Shown in pieces: positions 46,595 through 54,686 of a stretch of 55,699 bases of DNA; position 1 is the stretch's first letter, and the number at the start of each line of letters is the position of its first letter. The notes beneath the pieces are model-generated. The model had not been told where the DNA came from, ran no database searches, and saw only the letters and a program-made list of their open reading frames with translations. The translations under genes and the position numbers were made by a program. The DNA is from Gemmatimonadota bacterium. Its GTDB lineage: Bacteria; Gemmatimonadota; Gemmatimonadetes; Longimicrobiales; Gaopeijiaceae. The DNA lies in NCBI GenBank assembly GCA_002724575.1, contig PBPC01000001.1:22296-77994 (forward strand), given 5' to 3'.

Positions 46595-47151
46595 GAAGTC
46601 CTTTTGGTCCCGGAGTGACAATCTTAGGAAGTGGTGCAGTTATTCTGATCTCATTTCTATTTATTGGAATACTTCTACCCGGTACCTGGACTGCGGAAGC
46701 ATCAGCACGCTTACCAGCATCTCCCGAAGATGCGTTTCTACACCTGGACTCACCTACAGACTGGAGTCAATGGACGACCTGGCCGGATAGCGAGGTGCAG
46801 ATGATCGGACCACCAAGCGGAGCGGGATCGGGCTTTATTTGGGACGACCCAGAACTGGGAACCGGGGCCTTCACAATCGTAGAAGTACAAGAAGCAGAAA
46901 TAGTTCGATATCAAGTGGAAATGCAGGGTGGAACAATGCATATCGAGGGAGTGCTCGAACTGAGTCTCGAACAGGGAGATACTAGGATTCTATGGAGAGA
47001 AACAGGTGACCTCGGCGCAAACCCTTTAATGGGTTACTGGGCTCTCTCTATGGATCGAGTCCAAAGCGCAGAGCTAGAGAAGAGCTTGGATCGATTACTT
47101 CAGCTCTTGCAAGTGTCTAATGATTCTACTGATTCCGGGCCCAATCAATAA
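46591..47151 (+). CDS. Membrane-anchored SRPBCC (polyketide cyclase-like) protein
   Basis: A 186-residue protein with an N-terminal transmembrane segment (GAVILISFLFIGILLPG, residues about 15-31). A START/SRPBCC helix-grip domain follows: ARLPASPEDAFLHLDSPTDWSQWTTWPDSEVQ, then GSGFIWDDPELGTGAFTIVE and RILWRETGDLG. This matches the family often labelled polyketide cyclase/dehydrase and lipid transport. The ligand is unknown. It overlaps the small zinc-ribbon membrane protein by 4 bp at its start. Its last 26 bp overlap the 3' end of rho, which runs the other way. Confidence 0.78.
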   Translation: MRSPFGPGVTILGSGAVILISFLFIGILLPGTWTAEASARLPASPEDAFLHLDSPTDWSQWTTWPDSEVQMIGPPSGAGSGFIWDDPELGTGAFTIVEVQEAEIVRYQVEMQGGTMHIEGVLELSLEQGDTRILWRETGDLGANPLMGYWALSMDRVQSAELEKSLDRLLQLLQVSNDSTDSGPNQ

Positions 47152-48583
47152 GATCCCGATTACTTGAAGTCTTTCTCATCGCTCCAAGCAACTCCTGCAT
47201 CCCATCTGCTGATCCAGATCCAGAGAGCTGCCGTCTCATGGCATGCGACACCCAAAGCGCGTCAGCATCCAGAAGGAGTTCTTCTTTCCGCGTAGCTGAA
47301 GCCGGAATGTCGATCGCCGGATAGATCCTCCGATCCGCTAATTCTCGAGACAGCACCAGTTCACTATTTCCGGTGCCCTTGAACTCTTCAAAGATCACTT
47401 GGTCCATCCGAGAGCCGGTATCGACCAATGCGGTAGCAATGATCGTAAGAGAGCCACCGCCTTGAGTCTGGGCGATCTTTCGTGCACTCCCCAAGAAACG
47501 CTTCGGCTTCTCTAGCGAGTTCGAATCAAGGCCACCAGAGAGTGTCCGGCCACTGCCTGATTTGACCGAGTTATACGCACGCGCCATACGAGTAATCGAG
47601 TCTAGTATGATCACGACGTCCTCCCCCTGCTCTACACGTCGCCGTGCTCTCTCGAGTGTTATCTCAGCGACTTGGCAGTGTCGTTCGGCGGGGCGATCAA
47701 AAGTTGAAGCGATGACCTCACCAAATCCGCACTGCTCCATCTCCGTGACCTCCTCAGGTCTCTCGTCCACCAAAAGAATAAGGAGATGACACTCGGGGTT
47801 ATTCTTTACAATGCCCTCAGCCACTGCCTGAAGCACCATCGTTTTTCCAGCCTTCGCTGGAGCAACGATCATTGCACGCTGACCCTTACCAATCGGACAA
47901 ATCAGGTCAATAACACGATTTGTGTACTCTGGTTGTCCCAGAAACTCTCTCCCGCACTCTAGAACAAGTTGGTCCTCAGGATGCACCGCACTTAACTGCT
48001 GAAAGTCCGGTCGCCGTGTTGCTTCTTCAGCAGGATGGTCATTAACCCGAGCCAGGTGCGCTAACGGAGGACTCTTCCCAGGCCGGGCACTCCTACCCAC
48101 GATTCCCACCAATTCATCACCAGTGCGTAAACCGAACCGTTGGATAATTCGGGATCCTACGTAAATATCATCATTACCCGGAGTGTACCCAGATTCCCTC
48201 CGGCGCACGAAACCTGACCCACTACCGAGTACTTCGAGGATTCCTAAAGGACGTGATTCTGCTTCGAGTTGTTCGGGATCGTCTGGAAGTTGGGCCTTAA
48301 GTTCTTCTTCACTGTAATGGTGCTGACTTTGTCCGCGAGGCTTGCGACGCCTTCGCCCGCGGCGACGGCGACGGCGACGTGGGCGTCCTTGTCCACTATT
48401 ACCCTGTCGCCTCTGCGGTCTCTGATTTGCCTCTGGCTCAGCAGCGCCCTCGCTTTCGGCCGGTGACTTAGCTGGAGCATCAGAAGCCTCTGCCTGACCC
48501 TCCGGCGTAGCCGGAGCCTCTGGCTCAGTGAAGCCGTCTAACGTCGGTTGAATTTCTGGTGATTCTGACACGTCTGAATCCAT
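47126..48583 (-). CDS. rho: Transcription termination factor Rho
   Basis: RNA-dependent hexameric helicase that ends transcription, 485 residues. The cold-shock-like primary RNA site begins at about residue 105 ([29 protein letters not shown]). The ATPase core has Walker [13 protein letters not shown], Walker [18 protein letters not shown], the Q-loop [15 protein letters not shown] and the R-loop region [27 protein letters not shown]. The helical Rho_N domain that usually opens the protein is not recognisable. In its place is a 100-residue disordered stretch, acidic and Pro-rich, then Arg-rich ([18 protein letters not shown]). The gene is convergent with the SRPBCC gene, overlapping it by 26 bp. 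Confidence 0.95.
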
Positions 48584-49019
48584 TTATACTTTACCTGGCG
48601 TCCCATGAGAGCAATTTGCCTCACAAACGCCTTCGGTAGAAACCCCGAAATAATCAGGAGTTGTGGACCGGTCCTCTTCAGGTGGCCAGGAGGCCACACT
48701 GGTACCGACGCATACCGCATCGGTCGGACAGAACAAATCTTCTACGAATAATGCCTGGGATCAAGTGTTGTGCATGCAGTGACACCCTACCCCGCACTTT
48801 GGGCTAAGGACAGGTTAAGCTCTCTACATACCCTCTGCCCCCAGAGCAACGTCTGTCCTCTCAGCACCCCAAATGTCTAATATATCGGACATAACGTCAC
48901 GTGGCTTCCGGCACCATAGATTATCCATAAACCATTGTGCCACATTGTTTTATATAGACTATTGTAAGAGTGGTATAGGTCGTGCATTTTATGTTCACAG
49001 CATCAATCTTTCCAGGAGA
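48584..49019. other. 436-bp intergenic region between rho and the divergent secreted-protein gene
   Basis: The longest gene-free stretch in the window. On the rho side there is possible leader structure: GTGGCC-AGGA-GGCCAC at 48682-48697, the palindrome GGACCGGTCC at 48665-48674, and a CCGAC/GTCGG pair further upstream. Rho genes in some bacteria have attenuated leaders, so this may be the rho 5' untranslated region. On the plus side an AT-rich stretch around 48930-48970 precedes the secreted-protein gene, but no consensus promoter was found. I see no tRNA, no terminator with a U-tract and no convincing ORF. Confidence 0.5.
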
Positions 49020-50300
49020 ATGAAGGTGTCCACTAGAGCTCGGACCAGCACTGTTTTGGTCTTCTTAATCGGGCTATCTGTGGTCGCAGCGGAAGCTCAG
49101 AGAGGGTTGCTATTTACCGTCGCTAACACCCCGATGGTGAGTAATCCAGCCTTTAGCGGGTTTTCGTTGCAACTATTCCCCCAAGCGCCGCTTGGCTATC
49201 TACAGATGGGTTCAGCCTTCCACACGCCCTACGCTGAATTCAGGTACGACATCTATTCCGGGCGCATGGGCGTACACCAACCTCGGTATTTCCGCCCTAT
49301 ACATCACCCCTGCTGGAATTACTCATGGGATCCTTTCTTAGGCCTTTTCAATGACTGGATATGGGGTTGTGATCTTCTCCCTGGCCAGGCGTACGGATCG
49401 ACCTATCGACCCTGGAATCGTATTTTTGTATGGACATCCTTCCATTCACGAACTCCACCCCACGCATTCACATATTGGAGGGATCCGTTCGTACCTCCCT
49501 GGGGTCCCCGTTGGACACAAGACCCATGGGCACCATTCTGGGATGGGTACTGGGATGAGCCGGGCTTCGGAGGACACTACCCTGCCCCCTACCCGGCTAT
49601 GCCCGCAATTGCTGAAGCTGAAGCCCCAACTCGAACAGCTACACGTCGTCCATCCTCACGGATAGCCTCACCCCGGGGGTACGGAGAGGGTTCAGCCAGG
49701 GTTCCGGGCCGTTCTGCCGTTCCAAGGGCCTCAAATCCTCCCGGCAGATGGCAGGGGATCCCTGTTTTGGATTCCAGAGATCCTAAAGAACCAACAGCAA
49801 GGCCTACGGCTAAGGGGGCTGAGCCTCCGCCATCCGACTTCATATACCCCCCTTCAGCGCACCCCTCCGCAGATCCAAGAAGAGGAAGTAGAGCGGGATC
49901 AGGAAAAACTGCTAAGGCCCCCCGACCATCAGACCGTATCGGTCTAGGTACAATTTCAGGGACAAAAGCCGGACCGAGGTCGAAGCCTAAGAGCCGCGAC
50001 CGGTCCCCTTATCCAAGCTTCGACCGGAGCCCTGCACCTGGAAATGGAGCCTCCAATCATCCTTCAATCGGCAGAAGGCCTTCTCCAAGAACACAAGGCC
50101 AGCCTAAAGCCTATCCTCAATCTTCAGGACCCAAAGCTGAACCCAATCCTGCACCCAGGGCTAAGGTTGCCCCTCCCCCGTCCCGAGCACCAAAAGTTCG
50201 TGCAACCCCAAGAACGTCTCCAAAGATGAGTCCGAGACCATCTCGCCAGACATCCCGGTCCCCTTCTACCGCCCGGAGAGCACAACGCCCCGGAAACTGA
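49020..50300 (+). CDS. Unrecognised secreted protein, aromatic-rich then Pro/Ser/Arg-rich
   Basis: I do not recognise the family. The ATG at 49020 has AGGAG just upstream and gives 426 residues; the frame is open to 48873, but that extension looks non-coding. A signal peptide (STVLVFLIGLSVVAAEAQ) is followed by about 150 residues crowded with Trp, Tyr, Phe, His and Pro, in short blocks such as WDPFLGLFNDWIW and DPWAPFWDGYWDEPGFGGHY. From about residue 200 to the end the chain is low-complexity, rich in Pro, Ser, Arg, Lys and Gly, strongly basic and likely disordered. A role binding nucleic acid, polysaccharide or cell surface is possible, but nothing in the sequence proves it. It converges with hutI, leaving a 6-bp gap. 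Confidence 0.6.
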   Translation: MKVSTRARTSTVLVFLIGLSVVAAEAQRGLLFTVANTPMVSNPAFSGFSLQLFPQAPLGYLQMGSAFHTPYAEFRYDIYSGRMGVHQPRYFRPIHHPCWNYSWDPFLGLFNDWIWGCDLLPGQAYGSTYRPWNRIFVWTSFHSRTPPHAFTYWRDPFVPPWGPRWTQDPWAPFWDGYWDEPGFGGHYPAPYPAMPAIAEAEAPTRTATRRPSSRIASPRGYGEGSARVPGRSAVPRASNPPGRWQGIPVLDSRDPKEPTARPTAKGAEPPPSDFIYPPSAHPSADPRRGSRAGSGKTAKAPRPSDRIGLGTISGTKAGPRSKPKSRDRSPYPSFDRSPAPGNGASNHPSIGRRPSPRTQGQPKAYPQSSGPKAEPNPAPRAKVAPPPSRAPKVRATPRTSPKMSPRPSRQTSRSPSTARRAQRPGN

Positions 50301-50306
50301 AGAACG

Positions 50307-51545
50307 CTAAGACAGCCTAAGAACACCTGCCTGAACCACAGCTCCACAAGGATTCGGCCCGATCCAGTAGGAAAGTTCCGATGGGTGGTCAATATCCCAG
50401 AGCACCAAGTCCGCGCTGGATCCTTCTCTCAAAACCCCTCGATCGCCCTGCATCCCAAGAACCTTGGCAGCGTTGCGGGTCATCCCGCATAGTGCCTCTT
50501 CTGGGTTAAGTCCAAACAAGACACAAGCCATATTCATTGCTATAAGTGGTGAATTGATCGGAGACGACCCTGGATTCAAATCGGTAGCAATCGCGATTGA
50601 AATACCTTGAGAGCGTAACACATCGACTGGAGGCATCTGCTCTTCACCCAGGAAGTAAAAAGCACCCGGTAATAACACGGCACTTGTCCCCGATTTTGCC
50701 ATCGCCTGGATTCCAGCCTCCGAAGCATACTCGAGGTGATCTGCTGATACGGCTCCGACTCGTGCTGCCAGAGCTGCTCCACCGGAGTCCGATAGTTGAT
50801 CAGCATGGACTCTGATTGGCAGGCCGTACCGTCTACCGGCTGTGAATATTCTTTCACATTCCTCGGGAGTGAATGCGATTCCTTCACAAAACGCATCGAT
50901 CCCGTCAGCCAACCCCTCGTCTATCACCTTCGGTATCATCGTCTCACAAATAAGATCAATGTACCCTGAGCGATCAGCCACATACTCAGGAGCAAGGGCA
51001 TGGGCACCAAGAAATGTTGTCCGGACAGCCACCGGGTGTTCTGTGCCTAGACGCCTCGCTACGCGCAGCATGCGCAACTCTGTCTCAACATCAAGACCGT
51101 AGCCTGATTTTACTTCAACCGTTGTTACACCAAACGACTGTAACGTGCTAAGTCGTCTTGAGGCACCTGAGAACAGTTCTTCGTCTGTCGCTCTGCGCGT
51201 GGCTTTAACAGTTGAGGCTATACCTCCCCCTCCTCGTGCGATTTCCTCGTAACTGGCACCTTGGAGTCTCATTTCGAACTCTCGAGCTCGATCGCCAGCA
51301 AATACCAAATGAGTGTGGCAGTCAATCAGACCAGGAGTAACCCAACGACCTTTGGCATCCAGAATGCTGGCCGCGTCTTCTCTAAATCTTGAAGAGAGAG
51401 CGGACATAGCTCCGACCCACTCGATTCGATCACCTGAAATCGCTACTCCACCATTGGCAATCTCGCCATACGGCAAAGGATTAGGCGCGCTTTCATTCAT
51501 CGTAGCGAGCATAGCATTTTCTATTAATAGATCGCAGGACACCAC
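50307..51545 (-). CDS. hutI: Imidazolonepropionase
   Basis: Third step of histidine degradation: hydrolyses 4-imidazolone-5-propionate to N-formimidoyl-glutamate. The 412-residue amidohydrolase has the metal motif GLIDCHTHLVFAGDRAREFEMRLQG in adjoining segments, the loop GGGGIASTVKATR, VEVKSGYGLDVETELRML, FLGAHALAPEY and the metal His in RVHADQLSDSGGAALA. The catalytic end reads IATDLNPGSSPINSPLIAMNMAC. Start is a GTG at 51545. It is divergent from hutF across about 45 bp, so the two probably share a control region. hutH and hutU are not in the window. Confidence 0.95.
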   Translation of the reverse strand: MVSCDLLIENAMLATMNESAPNPLPYGEIANGGVAISGDRIEWVGAMSALSSRFREDAASILDAKGRWVTPGLIDCHTHLVFAGDRAREFEMRLQGASYEEIARGGGGIASTVKATRRATDEELFSGASRRLSTLQSFGVTTVEVKSGYGLDVETELRMLRVARRLGTEHPVAVRTTFLGAHALAPEYVADRSGYIDLICETMIPKVIDEGLADGIDAFCEGIAFTPEECERIFTAGRRYGLPIRVHADQLSDSGGAALAARVGAVSADHLEYASEAGIQAMAKSGTSAVLLPGAFYFLGEEQMPPVDVLRSQGISIAIATDLNPGSSPINSPLIAMNMACVLFGLNPEEALCGMTRNAAKVLGMQGDRGVLREGSSADLVLWDIDHPSELSYWIGPNPCGAVVQAGVLRLS

Positions 51546-54026: not shown

Positions 54027-54326
54027 ATGACTCTGGTCATCTTTGAACTCGAAGCAAAAGAAGGCTGCATGGATGAACTGAAAGCTATGCTCAGAGAAGC
54101 CTTGCCTGACACCCGAGCATACCCAGGATGCTACGATCTTTCCGTATTCGCTGATCCAGATGGGAAAACCCTCTTGCTCGTCGAAGCCTGGGATTCCCAG
54201 GAGGCTTATGAGCGGTACTTCGCCTGGAGAGCGAATCCTGGTCCTGGCTTTGCATCGCTAGAAGATCTAGGACCACTGGTCGAGGGTGAACCGGCACCCC
54301 GATTCTTGGAGCCAGCCGGGCTGTAA
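54027..54326 (+). CDS. ABM-fold small protein, copy 1 (putative quinol monooxygenase type)
   Basis: A 99-residue ferredoxin-like dimeric alpha/beta barrel (ABM) protein. Typical features are MTLVIFELEAKEGCMDELKAML at the start, DTRAYPGCYDLSVFADPDGKTLLLVEAWDSQEAYERY in the middle and a C-terminal helix region. Family members bind quinones or act as small monooxygenases or decarboxylases without cofactors; the substrate is unknown. GGAGA lies seven bases before the ATG. A second copy follows at 54387, identical at 69 of 99 residues. Confidence 0.8.
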   Translation: MTLVIFELEAKEGCMDELKAMLREALPDTRAYPGCYDLSVFADPDGKTLLLVEAWDSQEAYERYFAWRANPGPGFASLEDLGPLVEGEPAPRFLEPAGL

Positions 54327-54386: not shown

Positions 54387-54686
54387 ATGACTCTGGTGAT
54401 CTTTGAATGCGAAGCAAAAGAAGGCTGCATGGATGAACTGAAGTCTACACTAAAAGGACTCTTGCCTGATACCCGCGCCTGGCCAGGCTGCTACGAGGTT
54501 GCGGGCTTTGCTGATCCAGATGGAAAGACTTTATTGTTTGTCACCAAATGGGAATCTAAAGAAGTCCATCAAGCATATCTGGGTTGGAGAGCGAATCCTG
54601 GTCCTGGGTTTACATCGCTAGAGGATCTAGCTGCGCTAGTTGCCGGTGAACCCACTTTCCGATACCTGGACCCAGCTGGGCTGTAA
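54387..54686 (+). CDS. ABM-fold small protein, copy 2
   Basis: Tandem paralogue of the preceding gene, also 99 residues, with 69 identical positions by direct comparison. Most conserved are the first 19 residues, ADPDGKTLL, WRANPGPGF and the end PAGL. The middle has diverged (KWESKEVHQAYLGW against AWDSQEAYERYFAW), hinting at a changed ligand or at heterodimer formation. The ribosome-binding region (GGGAGAACG) also resembles that of copy 1. The gene converges with the serine hydrolase gene after 24 bp. Confidence 0.8.
   Translation: MTLVIFECEAKEGCMDELKSTLKGLLPDTRAWPGCYEVAGFADPDGKTLLFVTKWESKEVHQAYLGWRANPGPGFTSLEDLAALVAGEPTFRYLDPAGL

Follow-up and report, generated by a model that had tools for sequence, protein, structure and literature searches.

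QseF (GlrR), an envelope regulator of Escherichia coli, recognizes the consensus TGTCN10GACA (PMC8745638). It is described as binding three upstream sites and activating glmY and rpoE from sigma-54 promoters, the products of both genes being regulators of cell-envelope homeostasis (PMC6075780). In Proteobacteria, many genes for PEP-CTERM proteins are reported to carry an enhancer motif averaging 62.8 nucleotides (nt) upstream of a −24/−12 box (PMC1569441), one RpoN-dependent PEP-CTERM gene is reported to be involved in floc formation (PMC9850573), and sigma-54 has been tied more generally to genes of the bacterial exterior (PMC3162934). Here we describe a gene from Gemmatimonadota, a phylum with six cultured species reported (PMC8779627), that almost certainly belongs to a real, conserved family of exported proteins and is very probably controlled by sigma-54 together with a TGTC-N10-GACA element. 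The gene lies at 49026–50300 of the window, the whole 55,699-nt stretch analysed (contig PBPC01000001.1, positions 22,296 to 77,994, forward strand), which comes from a member of the Gaopeijiaceae. No counterpart of the protein family turned up in the libraries searched, and its mode of control is a variation on a known type. The explanation that we favour, and for which the case is about evenly balanced, is that the protein is an exported two-block envelope or matrix protein, switched on by sigma-54, that binds anionic polymers as a self-associating coat.

A putative sigma-54 switch upstream of the gene

The strongest clue to the role of the gene is a predicted promoter–enhancer pair, common to other envelope genes, that lies upstream of the reading frame to which the first-pass annotation, made from the DNA letters, had been confined. 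The elements are as follows.

48854..48858 (+): extra half-site TGTCC, recognized by its position and by enrichment at composite sites
48874..48891 (+): enhancer-like palindrome TGTCTAATATATCGGACA, TGTC-N10-GACA, 9 of 10 positions, from the rho–gene intergenic alignment and 30 upstream regions
48971..48986 (+): sigma-54 type −24/−12 box TGGTATAGGTCGTGCA, 8 of 11 consensus positions, the TGGTAT variant of the genus, recognized by conserved spacing

The palindrome was first noticed because it is kept within the genus in the alignment of the rho–gene intergenic region. It was scored as TGTCC-N8-GGACA and the box as TGGCACG-N5-TGCA, the latter from the letters of the sigma-54 consensus, with dinucleotide shuffles as controls. 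The GG/GC pattern of that consensus also appears in the PEP-CTERM report (PMC1569441). Across the 30 upstream regions, the palindrome is perfect (10 of 10) in 18 and scores 9 in 7, scores reached by 0.05% (10) and 1.5% (at least 9) of shuffles. The box scores 11 of 11 in 13 regions, 10 in 6 and 9 in 5, compared with 6% of shuffles at 9 or above, although one of these 24 boxes (L051) sits at a different place. In 25 of the 30 members, the box lies 73–88 bp downstream of the palindrome; the five regions outside this spacing are L042 (masked bases), L054 (contig end), L056 (142 bp), and L049 and L051, where the best box is elsewhere.

The two elements were also searched for as one composite pattern. 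In 285,380 bases around 20 members, 15 occurrences were found, all of them just upstream of the family gene. The 150 genomes of the order that were searched yielded 57 occurrences in 49 genomes, compared with 2 for a reversed-pattern control, and the genome of the window has the composite site at the family gene only. At 27 of 55 composite sites, an extra TGTCC precedes the palindrome by no more than 40 nt, where 2.25 such sites would be expected from shuffles. A further CAAN4TTAG-like box stands 26–28 nt ahead of the −24 element; 7 of 34 family sites match its core without a mismatch, compared with 0.4% in shuffles, and none of 21 other sites does, and the window copy (48943–48953) scores 5 of 7. 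This box is perhaps an IHF-type core.

Genes behind the composite site

The 57 sites were sorted by eye according to the gene that follows. The protein family described here stands behind 36 of them (nine assigned by coordinates and 27 by reading the downstream frame, some frames running off the fetched piece ahead of the tail), other genes stand behind 20, and one frame is unreadable because it runs off the contig. The 20 other proteins, which were also scanned with Pfam, comprise 10 predicted outer-membrane barrels, 3 extracytoplasmic function (ECF) sigma factors, 3 lipoproteins and 4 other proteins with signal peptides. Five of the 10 barrels have an OMP_b-brl match at an expectation value (E) of up to 0.01, two of these above the cut-off, whereas the other five have no match and were recognized by eye only. 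Taken with the promoter architecture, these genes outline an apparent sigma-54 envelope regulon in Gemmatimonadota.

An ECF sigma factor stands behind the composite site in three genomes (L115, L122 and L179), two of which belong to other families of the order; this arrangement may echo the control of rpoE by QseF. In one genome of another family, the site precedes an LpoB-type lipoprotein (L121:1678-2298; Pfam E 2.8e-33), LpoB-type proteins being activators of peptidoglycan synthase.

Gene start and two-block protein

The open reading frame (ORF) at 49020–50300 (+) encodes 426 amino acids (aa) with no internal stop. It is a genuine gene and not a chance frame, because homologues in the genus have 67% and 51% identity and the 30 members compared have a common plan. 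The ATG at 49020, with which the first-pass annotation had opened the gene, is only 1 nt past AGGAG, and in two of five same-genus genomes its place is taken by ATA or TTG. By contrast, all five keep a GTG at the position equivalent to 49026, and the window copy is 7 nt past AGGAG, the reference Shine–Dalgarno sequence being AGGAGG. Because this GTG is kept and well spaced, unlike ATG 49020, it displaces the ATG as the preferred start, and the gene probably spans 49026–50300 and encodes 424 aa.

49014..49018 (+): Shine–Dalgarno sequence AGGAG, from the upstream alignment of relatives
49026..50300 (+): coding sequence of 424 aa plus stop, opened by the conserved GTG, from translation and same-genus comparison
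49026..49103 (+): signal peptide VLVFLIGLSVVAAEAQ, cleavage site approximate, recognized by eye from a hydrophobic core followed by AEA-Q
49104..49622 (+): neutral aromatic-rich domain, 173 residues, 22.5% Trp/Tyr/Phe, from composition
49311..49370 (+): two-Cys aromatic loop CWNYSWDPFLGLFNDWIWGC, Cys 96 and Cys 115 in the 424-aa numbering, from member comparison
49479..49541 (+): signature RDPFVPPWGPRWTQDPWAPFW, from member comparison and a DNA pattern search
49623..50297 (+): basic Pro/Ser/Arg/Lys-rich tail ending in RRAQRPGN, from composition and selection analysis

The first-pass annotation had described a signal peptide, an aromatic-rich domain and a basic, disordered tail, and all three were recovered. 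The domain contains 13.9% Pro and has a net charge of −3, whereas the 225-residue tail has a net charge of +34, 20% Pro and 3.1% Trp/Tyr/Phe. Relative to the Uversky charge–hydropathy line, the tail is predicted to fall on the disordered side and the domain on the ordered side.

The same plan recurs in the 30 members: a signal peptide, a neutral domain with about 25% Trp/Tyr/Phe and a long Pro/Ser/Arg tail. Composition was computed for 29 of them; the remaining member (G100) was read separately and has the same plan, and one member (L011) is cut by a contig end ahead of the tail. The median Trp/Tyr/Phe content is 25% in the domain versus 0% in the tail and the median charge is 0 versus +47, a split shown by all 29 computed members, in which the tails are 203–361 residues long. 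Within the first 230 residues, 29 of the 30 members have exactly two Cys, which flank an aromatic loop (for example, CWDYYWDSYWDPYSDWFYDC), and the remaining member has one. Near its end, the domain carries a loose YKExP-like motif in 22 of the 24 computed members outside the window genus and in none of the five within it. The C terminus is a basic, Gly-rich word (RRPGG, for example) in many members but not in all.

That the tail is real coding sequence, as the first-pass annotation had assumed, is borne out by its conserved frame and by the ratios of non-synonymous to synonymous substitution rates (dN/dS). In 10 same-genus pairs, dN/dS is 0.22–0.62 for the tail, 0.20–0.49 for the domain and 0.55–1.88 for the short signal peptide. 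These values indicate that the tail is under purifying selection in frame.

Profile searches of Pfam, NCBIfam, PHROGs and PDB with single members and with alignments gave no usable match (best stray matches at E of 0.053, 0.17, 0.084 and 0.079, respectively), in agreement with the first reading of the protein as one of no recognized family. Even at E up to 10, NCBIfam gave no match to the window protein, and a PEP-CTERM sorting domain was thus not found. AlphaFold2 gave no confident fold, with a mean predicted local distance difference test score of 33.9 for the window domain and 31.8 for one relative, values to which the small input alignments (16 rows only) may have contributed. These results bear on the idea that the protein serves outer-membrane biogenesis as a periplasmic chaperone or scaffold, in which the Cys loop would do the work and the tail would be a tether to peptidoglycan or lipopolysaccharide (LPS). 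The conserved Cys pair would suit such a role, as would the fact that predicted outer-membrane barrels and the LpoB lipoprotein (one genome, another family) stand behind promoters of this type, but the absence of an AlphaFold2 fold and the loose conservation of the domain would be unusual for a chaperone, and we consider the idea improbable.

Distribution of the family

A search with the single protein found matches in 11 of 58 genomes of its own taxonomic family, its own genome included. A profile of these relatives (A1) matched 26 of 154 genomes of the order and 21 of 395 genomes of the phylum, and the profile extended with nine diverged members (A4) matched 42 of the 395 phylum genomes, once in each and all in one taxonomic family (f1). 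In these whole-genome searches, the protein family is seen in only one family of Gemmatimonadota, where it is single-copy and fast-diverging. Sequence searches undercount it, because diverged members sit beside rho in genomes without a match: 15 rho-adjacent regions from genomes lacking a single-protein match contained 11 diverged members, all with the same general plan, whereas two contained none and two ended at a contig end. The homologue survey that the first-pass annotation had proposed yields both neighbours and copy number: of 21 neighbourhoods compared by clustering, 18 contain rho and 15 contain hutI, and there is one match per genome. In the own genome, no paralogue of the tail was found besides the tail itself at E up to 1. 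Beyond the phylum, the family was looked for by the DNA pattern of the signature (WGPxWxxDPWxx[YF]W) only; a collection of 84,980 species contains the pattern on 15 contigs, whose titles all name metagenome-assembled genomes of the Gemmatimonadota group, and a viral contig collection has 0 matches.

An exported, Trp-rich protein with a charged tail that diverges fast between genera might also be an antimicrobial-like cationic protein that acts on other cells and not on the envelope of its producer. However, each genome has a single match, at a syntenic place, beside which no conserved small partner gene was noticed, and the promoter type is common to outer-membrane genes of the cell itself. 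We regard an antimicrobial-like role as very improbable.

Proposed mechanism and comparison with known systems

The sequences show a conserved family with a shared plan, in-frame selection, a promoter–enhancer architecture and the kinds of gene behind it. On the explanation that we favour, a coat protein under sigma-54 control, envelope trouble would activate an NtrC-type protein at TGTC-N10-GACA, and sigma-54 RNA polymerase would then make the message. The gene would belong to a small envelope regulon together with genes for lipoproteins and predicted outer-membrane barrels, to which relatives add ECF sigma factors. The protein would be exported and its Cys loop would close through a disulfide. 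The Arg-rich tail would bind exposed anionic polymers of the envelope, such as LPS phosphates, acidic polysaccharide or released DNA, and aromatic–aromatic and aromatic–arginine contacts would hold the molecules together as a self-associating coat. Of these steps, use of the sites by sigma-54 and an NtrC-type activator is suggested by the promoter architecture, a disulfide between the two Cys is presumed, and binding of anionic polymers by the tail would fit its charge. Envelope stress or envelope homeostasis is a reasonably probable trigger, given the analogy with QseF and the kinds of gene behind the site. The earlier interpretation, a surface or matrix protein that binds anionic polymers and has its aromatic part as an adhesive or ligand-binding module, is as a whole partly supported.

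Several observations weigh against this explanation. The box in the window, at 8 of 11 positions, is matched by 46% of shuffles and is not significant alone, so the case for it rests on its position and on the relatives. Of 20 neighbourhoods, 5 lack the composite pattern, two owing to bases that are masked or to the end of a contig. In the own genome, the palindrome alone at two mismatches occurs at two places, compared with one for the control; because it is unspecific, the evidence is the palindrome–box pair and not the palindrome. No enrichment of the full IHF consensus was seen across 27 regions. Tails within the genus are about as Arg-biased as neighbouring genes (0.73 versus 0.79 in the window), although the bias of the tail is above that of neighbouring genes in 16 of 19 comparable members (G100 left out), in some barely. 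The label of envelope stress is borrowed from E. coli. Finally, although the three sigma-54 activator domains encoded in the own genome (89% complete), a class for which GAFTGA is the reference motif, speak for the explanation, none of the three reaches the NCBIfam cut-off for GlrR (best 366.6 of 763) or for PrsR (401.8 of 502.6); the best score is for NtrX (463 of 600).

Because no activator passes the GlrR model, we liken the regulon to that of QseF in Enterobacteriaceae but do not file it as such. The two are alike in TGTC-N10-GACA, in having more than one upstream site, in the sigma-54 type promoter and in the ECF sigma factors behind such sites, here in relatives. They differ in phylum and in that the Gemmatimonadota targets are mainly exported proteins.

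The main rival holds that the product is a structural biofilm-matrix protein or adhesin, with sigma-54 control reflecting growth mode or surface life and not envelope damage. In the PEP-CTERM/exosortase systems under PrsK–PrsR, as here, the genes encode exported proteins, mostly form units of one gene and follow a long intergenic region that carries an enhancer and a −24/−12 box (PMC1569441), and the RpoN-dependent gene of floc formation (PMC9850573) points in the same direction. The link between sigma-54 and the bacterial exterior (PMC3162934) fits the coat equally. In contrast to these systems, the window protein has no PEP-CTERM match, the PrsR cut-off is not reached, and the family's TGTC-N10-GACA is unlike the PEP-CTERM enhancer motif, which ends in TTTACA. 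Moreover, the ECF sigma factors and LpoB in the regulon of relatives point to homeostasis. A matrix or adhesin role of this kind is possible, but we think it unlikely.

A self-associating coat or matrix is itself a tentative proposal, for which the prospects are slightly short of even; it draws on composition and on analogy. FUS-type proteins have aromatics and arginines in separate blocks, a split that the window protein resembles, but they are intracellular RNA-binding proteins of animals, whereas the window protein has a signal peptide. The N-terminal domain of galectin-3, outside the cell, is reported to aggregate LPS micelles through aromatic-driven phase separation (PMC7060198). Galectin-3 is an animal lectin; the analogy is functional only, and condensation of the window protein is hypothetical. 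More doubtful is the joint proposal that the protein forms an extracellular, stress-induced condensate or cement that seals or coats the surface by aromatic–arginine phase separation, under a shared QseF-like sigma-54 regulon old enough to span Gemmatimonadota and Enterobacteriaceae.

No published account of the protein or of a Gemmatimonadota sigma-54 regulon turned up among the top-listed papers of a literature search that was short on subscription journals. The analysis assigns an unannotated low-complexity ORF to a defined family, gives that family a switch that can be tested, and exposes in Gemmatimonadota what appears to be a sigma-54 regulon for the envelope. If condensation outside the cell were true, secreted animal adhesives would have a counterpart in bacteria, one whose trigger site is known.

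Genomic neighbourhood

In the window, rho diverges from the gene and hutI converges on it, and the gene is therefore its own transcription unit. A role in histidine degradation, considered because hutI adjoins the gene, was rejected: this layout gives no operon common to both, and in another genome (G022) the member adjoins rho while hutI is about 1.16 Mb distant. A sigma-70 scan of 48500–50500 gave four promoter-like sites (shuffle mean 1.3, standard deviation 1.3), and an Rfam scan of 47000–50500 gave no match at E up to 1.

The rho-adjacent place varies among relatives. In two genomes of one genus (L077 and L078, about 2 Mb each), hutI lies about 0.4 kb from rho with no family-like frame, an apparent loss. 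In G034, a 1.8-Mb genome in which hutI was not found at E up to 1e-40, the rho-adjacent member (L087:2-853, minus strand) is a short, degenerate-looking 284-codon frame. Nine regions (L044, L045, L048, L052, L053, L057, L075, L076 and L080) have a gene between rho and the family gene that we take to be class V aminotransferase-like. The Rho gene of the window (47126–48583, minus strand) has an Arg/Pro-rich N-terminal insertion, and a second Rho-like match, of about 50–55% identity, was found in 38 of the 42 family genomes searched with the window Rho. Farther downstream, two neighbouring 99-aa ORFs (54027–54326 and 54387–54686, plus strand) are clear duplicates of one another and presumably resemble small antibiotic-biosynthesis-type monooxygenases.
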